Source of the DNA: Bryobacteraceae bacterium | GTDB taxonomy: Bacteria; Acidobacteriota; Terriglobia; Bryobacterales; Bryobacteraceae | Reading direction: 5' to 3' | Length of the DNA stretch: 60,075 nucleotides | NCBI GenBank assembly: GCA_025055455.1 | Contig: JANWXD010000025.1 | Coordinates: 1-60,075, forward strand | Shown here: positions 27,562 through 33,015 of the stretch, piece by piece | How the letters are laid out: the number at the start of each line of letters is the position of its first letter | Numbering within the stretch: position 1 is the first letter of the stretch | Made by a program: the position numbers and the translations under genes | The notes under the pieces: generated by a model | Seen by the model: only the letters and a program-made list of their open reading frames with translations | Database searches by the model: none | Told to the model about the DNA's origin: nothing

Positions 27562-27807
27562 ATGCCGGAGGAACAACCCAAGCCCCTGGCGGGTTTCGAG
27601 GCGGGTCTCGACGAGCTGGAGAAGGTGGTGCGGGAACTGGAAAGCGGAGACCTGACGCTCGAAAAAGCGCTGGAACTGTTCGAGCGCGGCGTGGCGCTCA
27701 GCGAGGCCTGCCGCAGGCAGCTGGAGGAAGCCGAAACGCGGGTCGAGGTGCTCTTGAAGCGGGACGGCAAGATTCAGCCCGAGCCATTTCGTCCCGACAA
27801 CGGATGA
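27562..27807 (+). CDS. xseB: Exodeoxyribonuclease VII small subunit
   Basis: 81 aa. The family signature is plain: FEAGLDELEKVVRELESGDLTLEKALELFERGVALSEACRRQLEEAE, a helical hairpin. XseB binds XseA to form the single-strand exonuclease. No xseA lies upstream here (the preceding gene is the TonB receptor), although the two are usually adjacent. The stop overlaps ispA by ATGA. Confidence 0.93.
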   Translation: MPEEQPKPLAGFEAGLDELEKVVRELESGDLTLEKALELFERGVALSEACRRQLEEAETRVEVLLKRDGKIQPEPFRPDNG

Positions 27808-28688
27808 GATTTTCGGAATACCTGGCCGCCCAGCGCCAGCGCATCGAGACGGAACTGCATGGAATTTTGCCCTCGGAGGCCACACCTCCGGAGGTGCTAC
27901 ACCAAGCCATGCGCTACAGTGTCTTTGCCGGCGGCAAGCGAATCCGCCCGCTGCTGTGTGTGGAGGCGGCGCGGGTGATCTCGGAGGAGGTCGCGGGCAT
28001 CGAGCGGGCCGCCTGCGCCGTTGAGTTGGTGCATACCTATTCGCTCATCCACGACGATCTTCCGGCTCTCGACAATGACGATTTCCGGCGCGGGCGGCTG
28101 ACTTGCCACAAGGTCTTCGGCGAAGCCATGGCCATTCTGGCGGGCGACGCGTTGCTTACATTGGCCTTCGAGGTGCTCGCGAACTTGCCGTGCGTGGACA
28201 GCGAGCGGCGCGCGCGCATGATGGGCGAACTGGCGGCCGCCGCAGGCAGTTGCGGCGGCATGATCGCGGGCCAGGTGGCCGACCTCGAAGGGGAAGGCAA
28301 GCCGCCGGAGCCCGGCCGGCTCGAGACGATTCACCGCGCAAAAACCGGAGCGCTCATCCGGGCCTCCGTGCGGATCGGAGGGATCTATGCCGGTGCGGAC
28401 GGCGAGCAGCTTGCGGCGCTGTCCTCTTACGGCGAGCACGTGGGGCTGGCGTTTCAGATCGTGGATGACCTGCTGGACGTGGAAGCAACCTCCGAAACGC
28501 TGGGCAAGACCACGGGCAAGGATGCCGCGCGGAAGAAGATCACGTTTCCGGCAGTCTACGGCATCCAGCGCTCGCACGAGCTGGCCGAAGCCGAGCGGCG
28601 CGCCGCCCGGCAGGCGCTGGAATGTTTTGGGAACCGCGCCGTGCGTCTGGCCGAACTGGCAGACTTCATCGTGTACCGCCGCGCATGA
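27804..28688 (+). CDS. ispA: Polyprenyl diphosphate synthase (farnesyl/geranylgeranyl type)
   Basis: 294 aa. The first Asp-rich motif is DDLPALDND (84-92), with the FAGGKRIRPLL segment (about 41-51) binding pyrophosphate. GKT and the second Asp-rich motif DDLLD come at about 217-221. The length and the two residues inserted in the first Asp motif fit short-chain trans-prenyl synthases (IspA). It makes FPP or GGPP for quinones, undecaprenol and carotenoids. The chain length cannot be judged reliably. It is flanked by xseB and tlyA with 4-base overlaps. Confidence 0.93.
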   Translation: MRFSEYLAAQRQRIETELHGILPSEATPPEVLHQAMRYSVFAGGKRIRPLLCVEAARVISEEVAGIERAACAVELVHTYSLIHDDLPALDNDDFRRGRLTCHKVFGEAMAILAGDALLTLAFEVLANLPCVDSERRARMMGELAAAAGSCGGMIAGQVADLEGEGKPPEPGRLETIHRAKTGALIRASVRIGGIYAGADGEQLAALSSYGEHVGLAFQIVDDLLDVEATSETLGKTTGKDAARKKITFPAVYGIQRSHELAEAERRAARQALECFGNRAVRLAELADFIVYRRA

Positions 28689-29416
28689 GCGCCTCCCGGC
28701 GACGCCTGGACCAGCTGCTGGTCGAGCGCGGGCTGGCGGAGTCTCGCGAAAAAGCCAAGGCGCTGATTGTCGCCGGCGCCGTCTTCGTGGATGGCCAGCG
28801 GGCTTCCAAGCCCTCGCAGCTGGTGGCCCTCGAAGCGGAGCTGTCTCTGGCGGCGCGCGCTCCGTATGTCAGCCGGTCCGGCAAGAAGCTGGAGGCGGCG
28901 CTGGACTTCTTCCGCATCCCCGTCCAAGGCCGCGTCTGTCTGGACGTGGGTGCCTCGACGGGAGGTTTTACGGACTGTCTGCTCCAGCGCGGCGCCCGGC
29001 GCGTGTACGCGGTGGACGTGGGCAAAGGCCAGTTGGACTGGCGGCTGCGCTGCGATCCCCGCGTGGTGGTTCGCGAAGGAATCAATGCGCGCTATTTGCG
29101 GCTGGAAGACATCGGCGAGCAGGTGGATCTGGCGGTGTGCGACGTCAGCTTCATCTCGGTCACTTTGATCCTGCCGGCCGTGGCCGCGCTGCTGCAGCCC
29201 GCCGGGGAAATGGTTATACTCGTCAAGCCCCAGTTCGAAGTGGGCCGCGGACAAGTGGGCAAGGGAGGGATTGTCCGCGACCCGGCGCTGCACCGGTTCG
29301 CGTGCGACCGCGTCGAACGCGCGGTGCGCGCGCTCGGCTACACGGCGTCCGTGATCGAGAGCCCCCTCCCGGGCGCGGAAGGCAACAAGGAATTCCTGCT
29401 CTATGCCCGTCATTAG
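28685..29416 (+). CDS. tlyA: TlyA-family rRNA 2'-O-methyltransferase (hemolysin A family)
   Basis: 243 aa. An N-terminal S4 RNA-binding domain (RRLDQLLVERGLAESREKAKALIVAGAVFVDG, about 5-37) is followed by YVSRSGKKLEAAL and the SAM-binding motif CLDVGASTGGFTDCLLQRGA (about 82-101). The catalytic-type region includes LAVCDVSFISV and ILVKPQFEVGR. TlyA methylates 16S/23S rRNA ribose positions. In many bacteria dxs lies between ispA and tlyA; it is absent here. The end overlaps nadK by 14 bp. Confidence 0.93.
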   Translation: MSASRRRLDQLLVERGLAESREKAKALIVAGAVFVDGQRASKPSQLVALEAELSLAARAPYVSRSGKKLEAALDFFRIPVQGRVCLDVGASTGGFTDCLLQRGARRVYAVDVGKGQLDWRLRCDPRVVVREGINARYLRLEDIGEQVDLAVCDVSFISVTLILPAVAALLQPAGEMVILVKPQFEVGRGQVGKGGIVRDPALHRFACDRVERAVRALGYTASVIESPLPGAEGNKEFLLYARH

Positions 29417-30266
29417 AACCGTCGGTGTCATGACCAAGCCGAACGTGCGCCGCGCTGGGGAAGTCGTGCCCGAGTTGCTGGCGTGGCTGCGCGCACGCGG
29501 CATCGAGGTGCGGTGCGACGAAACGACCGCGGAGTACGCGGGGGAAGCGGGAGGGCTGCCCCGTGAGCAAGTCCCCGAGGGTTGCCAACTGGTGATCGTG
29601 CTGGGCGGCGACGGCACCCTGCTTTCCGCCGCCCGGGCCATCGGGGGCCGGGAGGTGCCGCTGTTTGCGGTGAATCTGGGCGGTCTGGGATTTCTCACCG
29701 CCATTACCGTGGAGGAGATCTATCCGGAACTCGAGCGCGCCTTCCGGGGCGAACACCGTATCGGCAAACGCAGCATGCTGCACTGCGAGCTGGTGCGGGC
29801 GGAGCGCACCGTGTCCGCCTACGAGGCTCTGAACGACGTCGTGCTCACCAAGGCGTCCATCGCGCGCATGATCGATCTGGACGTGCACGTGGATGCGCAC
29901 TTCGTCTGCGCCTACAAGGCGGACGGGCTGATCGTTTCGACGCCCACCGGCTCGACCGCCTACTCGCTCTCCGCCGGCGGGCCGATCATTTTTCCCACGG
30001 TCGCCGCCCTGTGTTTGACACCCATCTGTCCTCACATGCTCACCAACCGTCCCGTGATCGTGCCGGATTCAAGCGTCATCCAGGTCTTGAACCTCGGCCC
30101 GGACGGGGAGACGTACCTGACGATTGATGGGCAGGTGGGCGAGCCGCTCCGACGGTACGACCGCGTCGTCTGCCGCCGCTCCAACCATTCGCTGCTGTTG
30201 GTGCGCCCGCCGAAGATGATGTTCTTCGACGTGCTCCGCGAGAAGCTGAAATGGGGCGAGCGCTGA
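29403..30266 (+). CDS. nadK: NAD kinase
   Basis: 287 aa. The kinase motif is LGGDGTLLSAAR (67-78), with NLGGLGFL (about 92-99) and the C-terminal domain motifs YEALNDVVLTK (NE/D region), DGLIVSTPTGSTAYSLSAGGPI and TIDGQVGE. It phosphorylates NAD to NADP in the cytosol. The xseB-ispA-tlyA-nadK order is common in bacteria. A 6-bp stem hairpin follows 70 bp downstream. Confidence 0.96.
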   Translation: MPVIRTVGVMTKPNVRRAGEVVPELLAWLRARGIEVRCDETTAEYAGEAGGLPREQVPEGCQLVIVLGGDGTLLSAARAIGGREVPLFAVNLGGLGFLTAITVEEIYPELERAFRGEHRIGKRSMLHCELVRAERTVSAYEALNDVVLTKASIARMIDLDVHVDAHFVCAYKADGLIVSTPTGSTAYSLSAGGPIIFPTVAALCLTPICPHMLTNRPVIVPDSSVIQVLNLGPDGETYLTIDGQVGEPLRRYDRVVCRRSNHSLLLVRPPKMMFFDVLREKLKWGER

Positions 30267-30335: not shown

Positions 30336-30350
30336 GACGCCTCAGGCGTC
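30336..30350. terminator. possible shared terminator hairpin between nadK and fmdB-like gene
   Basis: GACGCC-TCA-GGCGTC is a perfect 6-bp stem with a 3-nt loop, followed on the plus strand by GTTCTT. The loop is also the minus-strand stop codon of the converging fmdB-like gene. Candidate terminator for nadK, weak for the other strand. Confidence 0.4.
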
Positions 30351-30635
30351 GTTCTTGGAGGCGGCGGACGGAGACTCGGCTTTCTTGCCGTCCGAGGTGC
30401 TGCTCGTCTCGGCTTTTCCGTCGGCCCCCTCTTTGGACTTGCTGCCGTCCTTGCCCTGACGGGCGTAGTCGGTGATGTACCAACCCGTACCCTTGAACTG
30501 GAACGCGGGCGGGGAAATGAGCCTTTCCAAGCGGCCTCCGCAACCCTCGTGCACCGCCAGAGGCGCCTCAGCCGCCTTTTGCATCACCTCAAAGACGTCT
30601 CCACACGTCTCGCAACGGTACTCGTAAAGAGGCAT
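30342..30635 (-). CDS. FmdB-family zinc-ribbon protein with charged disordered tail
   Basis: 97 aa, with AAGGAGGG ahead of the ATG. The ribbon is MPLYEYRCETCGDVFEV with C8/C11 and H29/C32 as the second pair, so one of the four usual Cys appears to be replaced by His. The motif FQFKGTGWYITDYARQG (about 46-62) is the standard FmdB C-terminal segment. Residues 63-97 are Lys/Ser/Glu-rich and probably disordered. Role unknown. It lies just downstream of the S41 homologue, and the two may be co-transcribed. Confidence 0.87.
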   Translation of the reverse strand: MPLYEYRCETCGDVFEVMQKAAEAPLAVHEGCGGRLERLISPPAFQFKGTGWYITDYARQGKDGSKSKEGADGKAETSSTSDGKKAESPSAASKNDA

Positions 30636-30653: not shown

Positions 30654-31955
30654 TCAGCCCCGTGGCGAGGCCACGTCGGCAGCCGCCGGCGCGGCGCGAG
30701 GCAGGATGCGAGCGGCCTGGGCAGGCGCGGAGCTTTTCAGCACCTCGATGGCCTTCTTCAGCAAGTTGTCCTCTTCGGGTTTCACCGCCGGCGCCGGCGC
30801 GGCAGGCTGCTCCGGGGCTTGTTCCTCCTCGAGTTCCACGAAGGGTTCGGATTCCACGTAAGGAACCGAGGGGACTACCCCTGTGTCCTGTATGGCCTTG
30901 CCGCGCGGTGAGTAATACTTGGCCACCGAAAGGATGATCGCTCCGCCGTCCTGCATGGTGATGGCGCGGCGCAGCGCCGCGTCGCCGAACGTGCGTTCGC
31001 CCACCACCTCGGCGCGTTTGTTCTCCAGGAGGGCCGCCGCTGCAATCTCGGCCCCATCGGCCGTGCCTCGGTTGGTCGTCACCACCACCGGCAGCCTCCA
31101 GACCGTGTTCTTGGGGCTGGCTTCGAAATTCTGCCGGGGCACCTTTTGCCCCTCCAAATACGTCATGAGGCCTTTATCCAAGAAAAGATCCGCCAGCAAA
31201 ATACCTTCTTCGGCCGAGCCGACGGCGCACTGCCGCAAATCCAGGATGAGTCCTTTGGCGCCCTGCGACTGGAGGCGCTCCAGGGCCCGGGCGACCTGGT
31301 GGGCCTTGCCCTTGCTTAGACTTTGGGGGCGGACGTAGCCGATCTGATCCGGCAACATCTGCACAGCGAGGGGCGGATCCTCGATTCGGGCCCGCGTCAG
31401 AGCGATTTTCAACGGCTCGGCGCCCCCGACGCGCAGCATGGTGACCTCCACGGTGGTTCCCGGATCGCCGCGGAGCAACAGCTCCGCATACGCCAGGGGC
31501 ATGTCGCGCGTGGCCACACCCTGAATACTTTCGATGAGGTCTCCGGTGGTCAGACCCGCCTTGGCAGCCGGCGAACCGGCAAGCGCCCCTACGACGGTCA
31601 GGTAACCGAACCGCTTGGCGAGCACCAGTCCGACGTCCGCTTTGGCGGCACCTTGCTGCTTCAAGTACAGGTTGTACTGTTCGGCGTTCAGGTAACTGGC
31701 GAAAGGATCAATGGCCTCCAGCAAGCCGTTCAGCGCGCCGAGCGTGACGCTCTTGAGGTCGGGCTCCTCCACGTAGTCGCTCTTTATGCGGTGGAGCACC
31801 TCGGTGAAAACCGCCATCTGCCGGTAGGCGCCTTCGCCGGGCGAGTTGCTGCCACCAACTTGCGCTCCTACGAGCAACAGTGCTGCCAGGCACGCTGAAA
31901 CCGTAATAAAAACAAGCTTGAAGCGGTTTTTCATCGGTGCTAGCTGTTTACGCAT
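30654..31955 (-). CDS. S41 (CtpA/Prc) peptidase homologue, catalytic dyad lost
   Basis: 433 aa. A signal peptide or anchor (about 11-31) is followed by the N-terminal helical region (HRIKSDYVEEPDLKSVTLGALNGLLEAIDPFASYLN), a PDZ domain (about 106-190, with GSPAAKAGLTTGDLIESIQG) and the S41 core. The region equivalent to SASASEI reads TADGAEI: the nucleophile position is D300. The lysine 25 residues later (FGKG in active enzymes) is D325 in TFGDA. Active CTPs use Ser and Lys at this spacing, so the protein is predicted to be inactive as a protease; a scaffold or regulatory role is likely. The tail (370-433) is Pro/Ala/Glu-rich. M8 is an alternative start. Confidence 0.88.
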   Translation of the reverse strand: MRKQLAPMKNRFKLVFITVSACLAALLLVGAQVGGSNSPGEGAYRQMAVFTEVLHRIKSDYVEEPDLKSVTLGALNGLLEAIDPFASYLNAEQYNLYLKQQGAAKADVGLVLAKRFGYLTVVGALAGSPAAKAGLTTGDLIESIQGVATRDMPLAYAELLLRGDPGTTVEVTMLRVGGAEPLKIALTRARIEDPPLAVQMLPDQIGYVRPQSLSKGKAHQVARALERLQSQGAKGLILDLRQCAVGSAEEGILLADLFLDKGLMTYLEGQKVPRQNFEASPKNTVWRLPVVVTTNRGTADGAEIAAAALLENKRAEVVGERTFGDAALRRAITMQDGGAIILSVAKYYSPRGKAIQDTGVVPSVPYVESEPFVELEEEQAPEQPAAPAPAVKPEEDNLLKKAIEVLKSSAPAQAARILPRAAPAAADVASPRG

Positions 31956-31997: not shown

Positions 31998-32642
31998 TTA
32001 CCGGCGTTCCGGCGCAGGGTCCGGGGGTGAGGGCGCGTAAAGTCTGAGCACGCGCTCGATATAGCGCAGGGTCTCCTGGTAAGGGGGCACGCCGCGGTAG
32101 CGCTGGACCGCGCCGGGGCCCGCATTGTAGGCCGCCAGCGCCTTGCGCACCTGCCAAGGATCGTCCCGGTACTGCAGCAGCAATTCCCGGAGATACCGCA
32201 CGCCCGCCTCCACGTTTTGTTTCGGATCGTCGGGATCCGCGCCCAACCGCCGGGCTGTGGCAGGCATGAGCTGCATCAACCCCCGCGCCCCTTTCCTAGA
32301 GATAGCGTCGGGGCGGTAAGCTGACTCGACTCGTACGACGCTGTGAACAAAACCAGGAGGCAGGCCATGCCGCAGCGCGGCTTCCGTAATCAGTTGATGG
32401 GGGGAGAGTTGACGGCCCATCGGTGGCGCCGATGCCGCAACAGTTTGGGTTGGCTCCACCCGCTCGAAGCTGACGACAGCGCGGGCAGGCAGCTCGATGA
32501 AGCCCCCGTCTCGGTGGAGGCGGATGGTATCGCCGTGACGTTCATGGCGCTCCGCGTAGAGACGAAAACCCGTCTCGAGGACCGCGTACTCCCCCGCTGT
32601 AGCCATCAGAGCAGCGGTCAGCAGGGCTAAGAGGCGGAGCAT
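31998..32642 (-). CDS. Lytic transglycosylase (SLT domain)
   Basis: 214 aa from ATG 32642; an N-terminal extension upstream has no signal-peptide logic. The signal peptide MLRLLALLTAALMATAGEY is followed by a small beta region and the SLT domain (about 80-195): LITEAALRHGLPPGFVHSVVRVESAYRPDAISRKGARGLMQLMPATARRLG holds the catalytic Glu of the RVES motif, and AAYNAGPGAV is the conserved AYNAG segment. It cleaves peptidoglycan glycan strands with 1,6-anhydro ends. It could be co-transcribed with the S41 homologue 42 bp downstream. Confidence 0.9.
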   Translation of the reverse strand: MLRLLALLTAALMATAGEYAVLETGFRLYAERHERHGDTIRLHRDGGFIELPARAVVSFERVEPTQTVAASAPPMGRQLSPHQLITEAALRHGLPPGFVHSVVRVESAYRPDAISRKGARGLMQLMPATARRLGADPDDPKQNVEAGVRYLRELLLQYRDDPWQVRKALAAYNAGPGAVQRYRGVPPYQETLRYIERVLRLYAPSPPDPAPERR

Positions 32643-32703
32643 TTTACCCCTATTGGAAAGGACGTCTGGACGGCTGCAAGCGCGCAAGCATCTCCAGGCC
32701 CGC

Positions 32704-33015
32704 TCAGTCGAGATCGATGTCGCGCGTGGGAGGTTTCGAATCCGGACTTGACGTGGCCTGCTTGAAGAGCTCGTCGAACTTTCGCGCCAGGACCTCCTTG
32801 GATTTTTTCTCGGCTTCGATGGATCTTAGGAAGGCCTCTTCCCTGCGAGCTGCCTCTCCCTTGATGCGCTCGAGAGCTTCATCGATGTTTTGGTAGGTGC
32901 GGGGTTTTTCCGGCTCTTTGTAGCTGATCACGGCTTCGGTTTCCGGATCCACCTTGAGGAGCGCCTGGCAGCACGGGCAGCAGACTTCGAGCAACTTGCG
33001 AGCGCCTCTGGCCAT
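32704..33015 (-). CDS. Small zinc-ribbon/coiled-coil protein of unknown function
   Basis: 103 aa. The N-terminus LEVCCPCCQALLKVDPETEAVISY has four Cys (CCPCC plus neighbours) and looks like half a zinc ribbon. Residues 40-90 form a charged helix with a heptad-like pattern (DEALERIKGEAARREEAFLRSIEAEKKSKEVLARKFDELFKQA). No family is recognised. A TACGAT hexamer at 33026-33031 is close to the ATG. It is transcribed toward the lytic transglycosylase and may belong to that unit. Confidence 0.65.
   Translation of the reverse strand: MARGARKLLEVCCPCCQALLKVDPETEAVISYKEPEKPRTYQNIDEALERIKGEAARREEAFLRSIEAEKKSKEVLARKFDELFKQATSSPDSKPPTRDIDLD

Follow-up and report, generated by a model that had tools for sequence, protein, structure and literature searches.

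Proteases of the C-terminal processing (CTP) type have been studied as proteolytic controllers of peptidoglycan hydrolases. How such proteins serve the Acidobacteriota, a phylum abundant in soil whose cell-envelope biology is little known, is the subject of this work. In the excerpts of the papers that we cite throughout, B. subtilis CtpB uses a Ser309-Lys334-Gln338 triad, and exchange Q338E abolished its activity (PMC3808539). When P. aeruginosa CtpA was assayed in vivo, S302A and K327A abolished activity, whereas Q331A had a minor and H84A a moderate effect (PMC11021448). H. pylori CtpA has the triad S300/K325/Q329, the sensor residue Arg162, and also Phe105 and His85, the last described there as conserved in CtpAs and not in CtpBs; within the CtpA family, dimerisation occurs through N-terminal helices and further assembly through a C-helix (PMC12749690). 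The gene order in P. aeruginosa is envC-ctpA-PA5135, and PA5135 has an E. coli orthologue, SddA (PMC12569750), which deacetylates denuded glycan strands and is linked to amidase activation (PMC12440217). In S. meliloti we find the order rlmH, envC, S41, deacetylase, RNA pyrophosphohydrolase.

We analysed a stretch of 60,075 nucleotides (the window; contig JANWXD010000025.1, our C63) from a 3.95-Mb Bryobacteraceae assembly with a completeness of 98.75%. On its minus strand, a complete open reading frame at 30654..31955 encodes P0001, a protein of 433 residues. An earlier, sequence-only reading had taken this frame for a CtpA-type protein with a PDZ domain, and Pfam agrees: Peptidase_S41 matches residues 205-364 with 120 bits and PDZ_6 matches residues 121-174, the CTP arrangement of subfamily S41A (CtpA/CtpB/Prc). 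The C-terminal processing peptidase model TIGR00225 scores 207.5 bits, below its curated cut-off of 218.6. Mean pLDDT of the structure model is 84.6; averaged in blocks of ten, residues 181-360 reach 92 to 98. It starts with a helix that covers the hydrophobic stretch at about 10-34, followed by N-terminal helices (41-82), the PDZ domain (about 105-187), cap and core (188-364), a low-confidence linker and a last helix (397-417). By sequence (phmmer) as well as by fold, the nearest solved relatives are the CtpA proteins of P. aeruginosa and H. pylori. Besides 31955 there is a second candidate start, Met8 (31934-31932); since a methionine stands there in 18/18 aligned sequences, P0001 included, residues 1-7 may be untranslated and the numbering may shift by 7.

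The alignment places Asp300 (codon GAT, 31056..31058, minus strand) at the position of the nucleophile, opposite the Ser of 7rpq and the Ala of 7rqh; the latter is by its entry title the S302A mutant of P. aeruginosa CtpA and fixes the serine position independently. Asp325 (GAC, 30981..30983, minus strand) and Arg329 (CGC, 30969..30971, minus strand) lie opposite the general-base Lys and the Gln of the FGKGSVQ motif. Direct reading of the GAT and GAC codons bears out the original claim that both catalytic residues are replaced. The losses reach further than these two residues, to other active-site and sensing positions: Gln329, His85, aromatic 105 and Gly245. P0001 keeps Arg162, with Phe85 and Lys105 instead of His85 and an aromatic residue. 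It lacks the Ser-Lys dyad of S41A, the Gln of the triad, His85 and aromatic 105. We hold it very likely to be non-proteolytic. That the triad of H. pylori CtpA carries the same numbers, 300, 325 and 329, is a coincidence.

Is this a peculiarity of one protein? We read 272 related loci, 200 of them distinct over the aligned core; those of the wider phylum were hand-picked from the best matches listed, not drawn at random. Three rows (L210, L211, L224) are canonical CtpA by tree and were set aside, leaving 197 distinct members with 39 Acidobacteriota family codes. The dyad is absent from 194/197, and the three that keep it (L170, L207, L208) all belong to family f27. None of 109 Bryobacteraceae members has it (family f1, to which named loci were assigned by similarity), nor does any of the 29 in f4, all of which have Gly300. 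Ser300 alone is left in 16/194 and Lys325 alone in 3/194. Residue 300 of the 109 Bryobacteraceae proteins is G in 38, D in 25, N in 17, S in 13, A in 5, R in 5, T in 3, E in 2 and Q in 1, while residue 329 is R in 102. The expectation that close homologues might share both aspartates did not hold, with Asp300 in 25/109 and Asp325 in 91/109 Bryobacteraceae orthologues. What the clade has in common is the loss, not the two Asp. We rejected the idea that these aspartates form a novel, conserved pair of catalytic residues, because position 300 is variable, with nine residues in Bryobacteraceae. A shifted alignment that hides a dyad was rejected as well. The sequence-only reading had named a correct alignment with Ser and Lys elsewhere as grounds against it; with 3 positions of slack on either side, a Ser around 300 and a Lys around 325 are found in the same protein in 4/194 members, and both in register in 0/194.

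We compared the 194 members with 35 catalytic proteins: two paralogues of this genome (Pfam), 29 loci similar to one of them, the three set-aside rows and one S. meliloti protein (L202, a pseudoprotease of genome G376, was left out). His85 is found in 0/194 members versus 35/35 comparators, aromatic 105 in 0/194 versus 33/35, Gly245 in 18/194 versus 35/35, Arg or Lys at 162 in 72/194 versus 34/35, and Gln329 in 78/194 versus 33/35. Gly109 and Glu303 are present in all 194 members and all comparators. Since the sensor residues are altered, binding by the PDZ domain need not be to free C-termini, and its established mode of recognising C-termini may have been lost. An acidic residue at 325 is paired with Arg329 in 93/194 members, and a salt bridge may have replaced Lys-Gln. 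Families other than f1 and f4 contribute 56 members; three of these (f10, f20) have acidic 325, each with Arg329. Could these proteins still be enzymes, with other residues? The acidic 325-Arg329 pairing, which also holds for 3/3 acidic-325 rows outside f1 and f4, and the Ser-Lys-Gln of the three f27 proteins speak for it. We nevertheless consider it very improbable: nine different residues stand at position 300 within a single family, the clade has lost His85, aromatic 105 and, for the most part, Gly245, and no replacement set of residues was seen across it. The f27 keepers L170, L207 and L208 retain Gly245-Gly246 together with Ser-Lys-Gln; they, too, have neither His85 nor aromatic 105.

Loss of catalysis is a classical sign of a decaying gene. 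Matches at E 1e-20 or better, however, exist in 199/200 genomes of the family, and an orthologue-grade match (E below 1e-80, read from the E-value table) in 191/200, the window's own genome included; of the nine without, four are more than 90% complete. Strong matches extend through order and phylum. Among 104 close pairs (at least 80% identity and dS <1.5; 142 pairs reach that identity, and pairs share branches), dN/dS by Nei-Gojobori has a median of 0.09 and a range of 0.014-0.24. The pseudoprotease gene is under purifying selection, as the remark that it is not a decaying gene had anticipated. Across many genera the frames are open and purifying selection is strong; there is next to no chance that the gene is decaying or an assembly error, and we dismissed this explanation. 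A protease fold without catalytic residues that is evolutionarily conserved makes the protein a pseudoprotease.

A quick tree comprised 109 rows, chosen representatives from which 6 near-duplicate rows of other families were left out; it was here that L210, L211 and L224 grouped with canonical CtpA. For a careful tree of 87 rows, 29 of the 109 were removed (2 flagged long, the others for size) and 7 from other phyla were added; clade membership of distinct relatives outside the trees was judged by similarity. In the careful tree the pseudoproteases form a clade of 56 rows with support 100/99, separate from canonical Acidobacteriota CtpA and from the seven CtpA of other phyla. Because families with several rows group together, the clade looks vertically inherited and old. 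The Ser-Lys-Gln rows of f27 are nested within it, beside L209 (Gly-Lys-Gln) and f42 (Gly-Lys-Arg). A grouping of the f27 rows outside the clade was rejected (AU p 4e-8; the grouping was chosen after the tree was seen). Did f27 regain the dyad or never lose it? The minimum number of changes on the careful tree is 2 for the dyad (4 for Ser, 3 for Lys), and parsimony favours a single loss followed by a regain in f27. The f27 serine codons (TCA, TCC, TCC) are more than one step from the GGC of its sister L209, which leans the other way, to retention in f27 and, by our count on the tree, about six losses. L209 itself may mark a step in a series from protease to pseudoprotease. In a contig scan, 79 of the best 80 of 431 relatives are labelled Acidobacteriota and one (L278) Acidimicrobiia, though the contig of L278 is as long as G030:C5, a contig of a family genome. 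The other genome-contig scan found no relatives. Seven of 210 plasmid records with a match were read, and all seven have Ser-Lys-Gln.

Which protein does the proteolysis in these cells? The source genome holds three S41 genes, and the other two keep Ser and Lys, so that the search for a second, complete ctpA proposed by the sequence-only reading was successful. The canonical Acidobacteriota CtpA (about 540 residues; here on contig C64, with a second on C71) shares S41 and PDZ domains and the same cell with P0001; unlike P0001 it has Ser and Lys intact and belongs to a different clade. The second paralogue, L002 (genome G000, contig C71, 27339-27863), has Ser and Lys but Glu for the triad Gln. 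For the contrast of pseudoprotease and active paralogue we took 24 genomes in which both are present and which form 276 genome pairs; as such pairs are not independent, the figures are a contrast and not a p-value test. Identity for pseudoprotease and active paralogue, respectively, is 0.383 and 0.397 in the N-terminal region (pseudoprotease lower in 143/276 pairs), 0.383 and 0.415 in the PDZ domain (167/276), 0.253 and 0.386 in the cap (246/276), and 0.393 and 0.614 in the core (276/276). Set against the active paralogue, the pseudoprotease shows nearly equal conservation in its dimerisation and PDZ regions and a relaxed catalytic core. Such unevenness is what one would expect if constraint on catalysis had been relaxed and the parts for assembly and binding had been kept.

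The pace of the N-terminal region, close to that of the active paralogue, would also suit a regulatory subunit that assembles into hetero-oligomers with the cell's own intact CtpA and modulates how active it is. Excerpts on the CtpA structures of H. pylori and P. aeruginosa report a single active subunit in each dimer (PMC12749690, PMC11021448), and a dead subunit could therefore fill the resting place. A search with the active paralogue, moreover, found an S41 protein that has both Ser and Lys in 26/27 genomes. We still think such a subunit unlikely. In G376 (f66, 87% complete; L096/L202) the pseudoprotease is the sole S41 match. The two proteins are about 30% identical and are not neighbours. 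Most f25 genomes gave one match at E of about 1e-36 to 1e-40, and the one that was read, L194, is Ser-Lys-Gln; f25 and some other families seem to hold intact CtpA only, with absence of the pseudoprotease read from E-values alone, so CtpA does not need it. A role as decoy for an active protease, another early suggestion, received no direct support.

In the window, an SLT-domain lytic transglycosylase gene (31998..32687, minus strand; Pfam SLT) lies 42 bp upstream of the pseudoprotease gene, and from this spacing the two are probably co-transcribed. The TTG start of the transglycosylase frame is mechanical; an ATG at 32642 opens a signal-peptide-like sequence. Further upstream follows a frame of 103 residues without a Pfam match (32704..33015, minus strand), and 18 bp downstream of the pseudoprotease lies a Zn_ribbon_8 (FmdB-type) gene (30342..30635, minus strand; Pfam). 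These four genes are likely to form an operon. Convergent to it are ispA-, tlyA- and nadK-like genes (27804-30266). The same trio occurs about 1.4-7.2 kb from the pseudoprotease in f26, f31, f48, f60 and f64; no tlyA or nadK was seen at other Bryobacteraceae loci within the flanks read, and one Bryobacteraceae contig (L113/L228) has an ispA-like match of 33%. Across 96 distinct Bryobacteraceae loci with enough flank, the zinc ribbon is found within 900 bases in 69, SLT in 6 and MtgA in 1. The lytic transglycosylase was on these counts rejected as a general conserved partner. The cell-wall link drawn in the sequence-only reading fails in the form in which it was made, adjacency to a transglycosylase, which is local. 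It stands as a setting across the phylum, through other genes: an EnvC-like M23 protein, a YibQ-like deacetylase, MltG and MtgA.

MtgA lies within 900 bases at 23/29 loci of f4. Many deep families have ruvX-mltG beside the pseudoprotease, mostly divergent, and in many HU and thrS follow. An EnvC-like gene (a label given for an M23 domain, a long N-terminal part and position) is found no more than about 40 bases upstream at one or more loci of f10, f20, f21, f27, f42, f46, f48, f50, f56, f60, f64, f67, f77 and f80; Pfam confirmed M23 in 10/10 candidates, from eight of these fourteen families. It likewise confirmed Polysacc_deac_2 downstream in 4/4 candidates, YceG (MltG) in 2/2 and Transgly (MtgA) in 1/1. 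The Polysacc_deac_2 gene follows the pseudoprotease in f10, f21, f27 and f80, which gives the full M23-S41-deacetylase order in f10, f21 and f27 by Pfam and in f80 by Pfam for the deacetylase and by HMM for the EnvC-like gene. As f46, f48, f60 and f77 hold both EnvC-like and MltG genes, the two arrangements are tied together. In addition, nine families encode a protein of about 700-790 residues close to the pseudoprotease and on its strand (L089, L095, L159, L174-L176, L214-L216, L218, L219, L221); we take it to resemble a type I phosphodiesterase/nucleotide pyrophosphatase.

A listed peptidoglycan gene (EnvC-like, MltG, YibQ, MtgA or SLT) is found within 900 bases at 58/179 clade loci versus 0/31 loci of the other CtpA; each locus was counted once, all flanks were trimmed to the same 900 bases, and the neighbour HMMs were seeded from this clade's own neighbours. 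Such genes occur in 24/36 families, in the majority of loci in 21. Much of this linkage is one inherited gene order, and the families are therefore not independent evidence. For the clade alone, the counts are 53/149 loci and 27/34 families within 1500 bases, and 50/134 loci and 26/31 families within 3000 bases. No listed gene was found within 900 bases in 12/36 families, nor within 3000 bases in f3, f72, f34, f79 and f22 (5/31 families).

We favour, at somewhat better than an even chance, the reading that P0001 is a CtpA which the Acidobacteriota converted to a non-catalytic role in the envelope, as a scaffold or adaptor in peptidoglycan remodelling. It would probably descend from the CtpA of the envC-ctpA-yibQ order known from Pseudomonas and Sinorhizobium. 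It would be anchored in the membrane with its domains in the periplasm and would still oligomerise through its N-terminal helices and C-helix. Its PDZ domain, with altered sensing residues, could bind peptidoglycan enzymes, or the factors that regulate them, and leave them undegraded, the protein serving as a scaffold, an adaptor or a sequestering factor; proteolysis would be left to the separate intact CtpA of about 540 residues in most of these genomes. The presence of this disarmed protein in many relatives across the phylum points to a second role maintained over a long time, probably that of a scaffold to which cell-wall enzymes bind. At the window itself, this reading draws its sole support from the lytic transglycosylase neighbour. 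Several findings speak against it: the altered PDZ sensor (Arg or Lys at 162 in only 72/194, aromatic 105 lost), the peptidoglycan genes near at most 7/96 Bryobacteraceae loci and near none in 12/36 families at 900 bases, the occurrence of the pseudoprotease with no other CtpA in G376, and the three f27 members of the clade with Ser-Lys-Gln.

Could the change lie early in the history of the phylum? Tentatively, and with more doubt than confidence, we consider that proteolysis was lost early in Acidobacteriota, in one step or in several independent ones, from the CtpA of the envC-ctpA-yibQ order, and that much of the phylum retained the protein to organise the remodelling of septal or lateral peptidoglycan without catalysis. 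Cell-wall enzymes would then have come to be controlled through binding instead of degradation. If so, f27 would be a living series of intermediates (S-K-Q and G-K-Q, with G-K-R in its relative f42) in which the conversion can be studied stepwise, and the non-catalytic parts (dimerisation, PDZ, membrane anchoring) would carry a function of their own. A catalysis-free relative of CtpA is a natural means of separating scaffold from protease roles. For annotation, it follows that "S41 peptidase" can name a non-peptidase in Acidobacteriota.

How does P0001 compare with other S41-fold proteins? Unlike P0001, vertebrate RBP3/IRBP consists of tandem modules and serves retinoid and fatty-acid transport, and it is not known to have a CTP-type PDZ domain. 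As in our clade, an S41-fold lineage has lost catalysis there, and excerpts describe RBP3 as carrying retinoids and fatty acids (PMC11750400). Its modules match the P0001 model with Z 17-19. By analogy, the fold might have been recruited here as a ligand binder, for example for lipids. With the PDZ domain, the N-terminal helices and the C-helix of CtpA all kept, and no lipid-related neighbour noticed in an unsystematic look, we judge this quite unlikely and retain the scaffold or adaptor as our preferred reading. Pseudoproteases are already known as a kind of protein, and so is RBP3 as an S41-fold non-protease (PMC11750400, in excerpt). Among the papers listed in searches of the open PMC library, none was seen to describe a clade of bacterial CTP pseudoproteases, an inactive homologue of a CTP or an S41 pseudoprotease, in Acidobacteriota or elsewhere.

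Among bacterial CTPs, B. subtilis CtpB has a domain order like that of P0001 (resting state 4c2e: Z 35.5, rmsd 4.0, 368 residues), whereas its Ser309/Lys334/Gln338 are lost in P0001. Arg168, the polar sensor of CtpB, has no conserved counterpart in the clade, although the window protein has Arg162. H. pylori CtpA (9ku0) is the best structural match (Z 38.3, rmsd 3.0, 345 residues); its triad, Phe105 and His85 are all lost in P0001. P. aeruginosa CtpA, of the LbcA-CtpA system, fits the model with Z 36.9, rmsd 3.7 and 32% identity over 352 residues (8sxe) and has the PDZ domain and the N- and C-terminal helices in common with it. Its Ser302/Lys327/Gln331 and His84 are absent from P0001, and while it degrades cell-wall hydrolases, P0001 should not. 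The P. aeruginosa locus has envC and deacetylase neighbours; the locus in the window has neither, with SLT upstream and the zinc ribbon downstream. In four deep Acidobacteriota families, the envC-ctpA-PA5135 order of P. aeruginosa is found again as EnvC-like M23, S41 and deacetylase.
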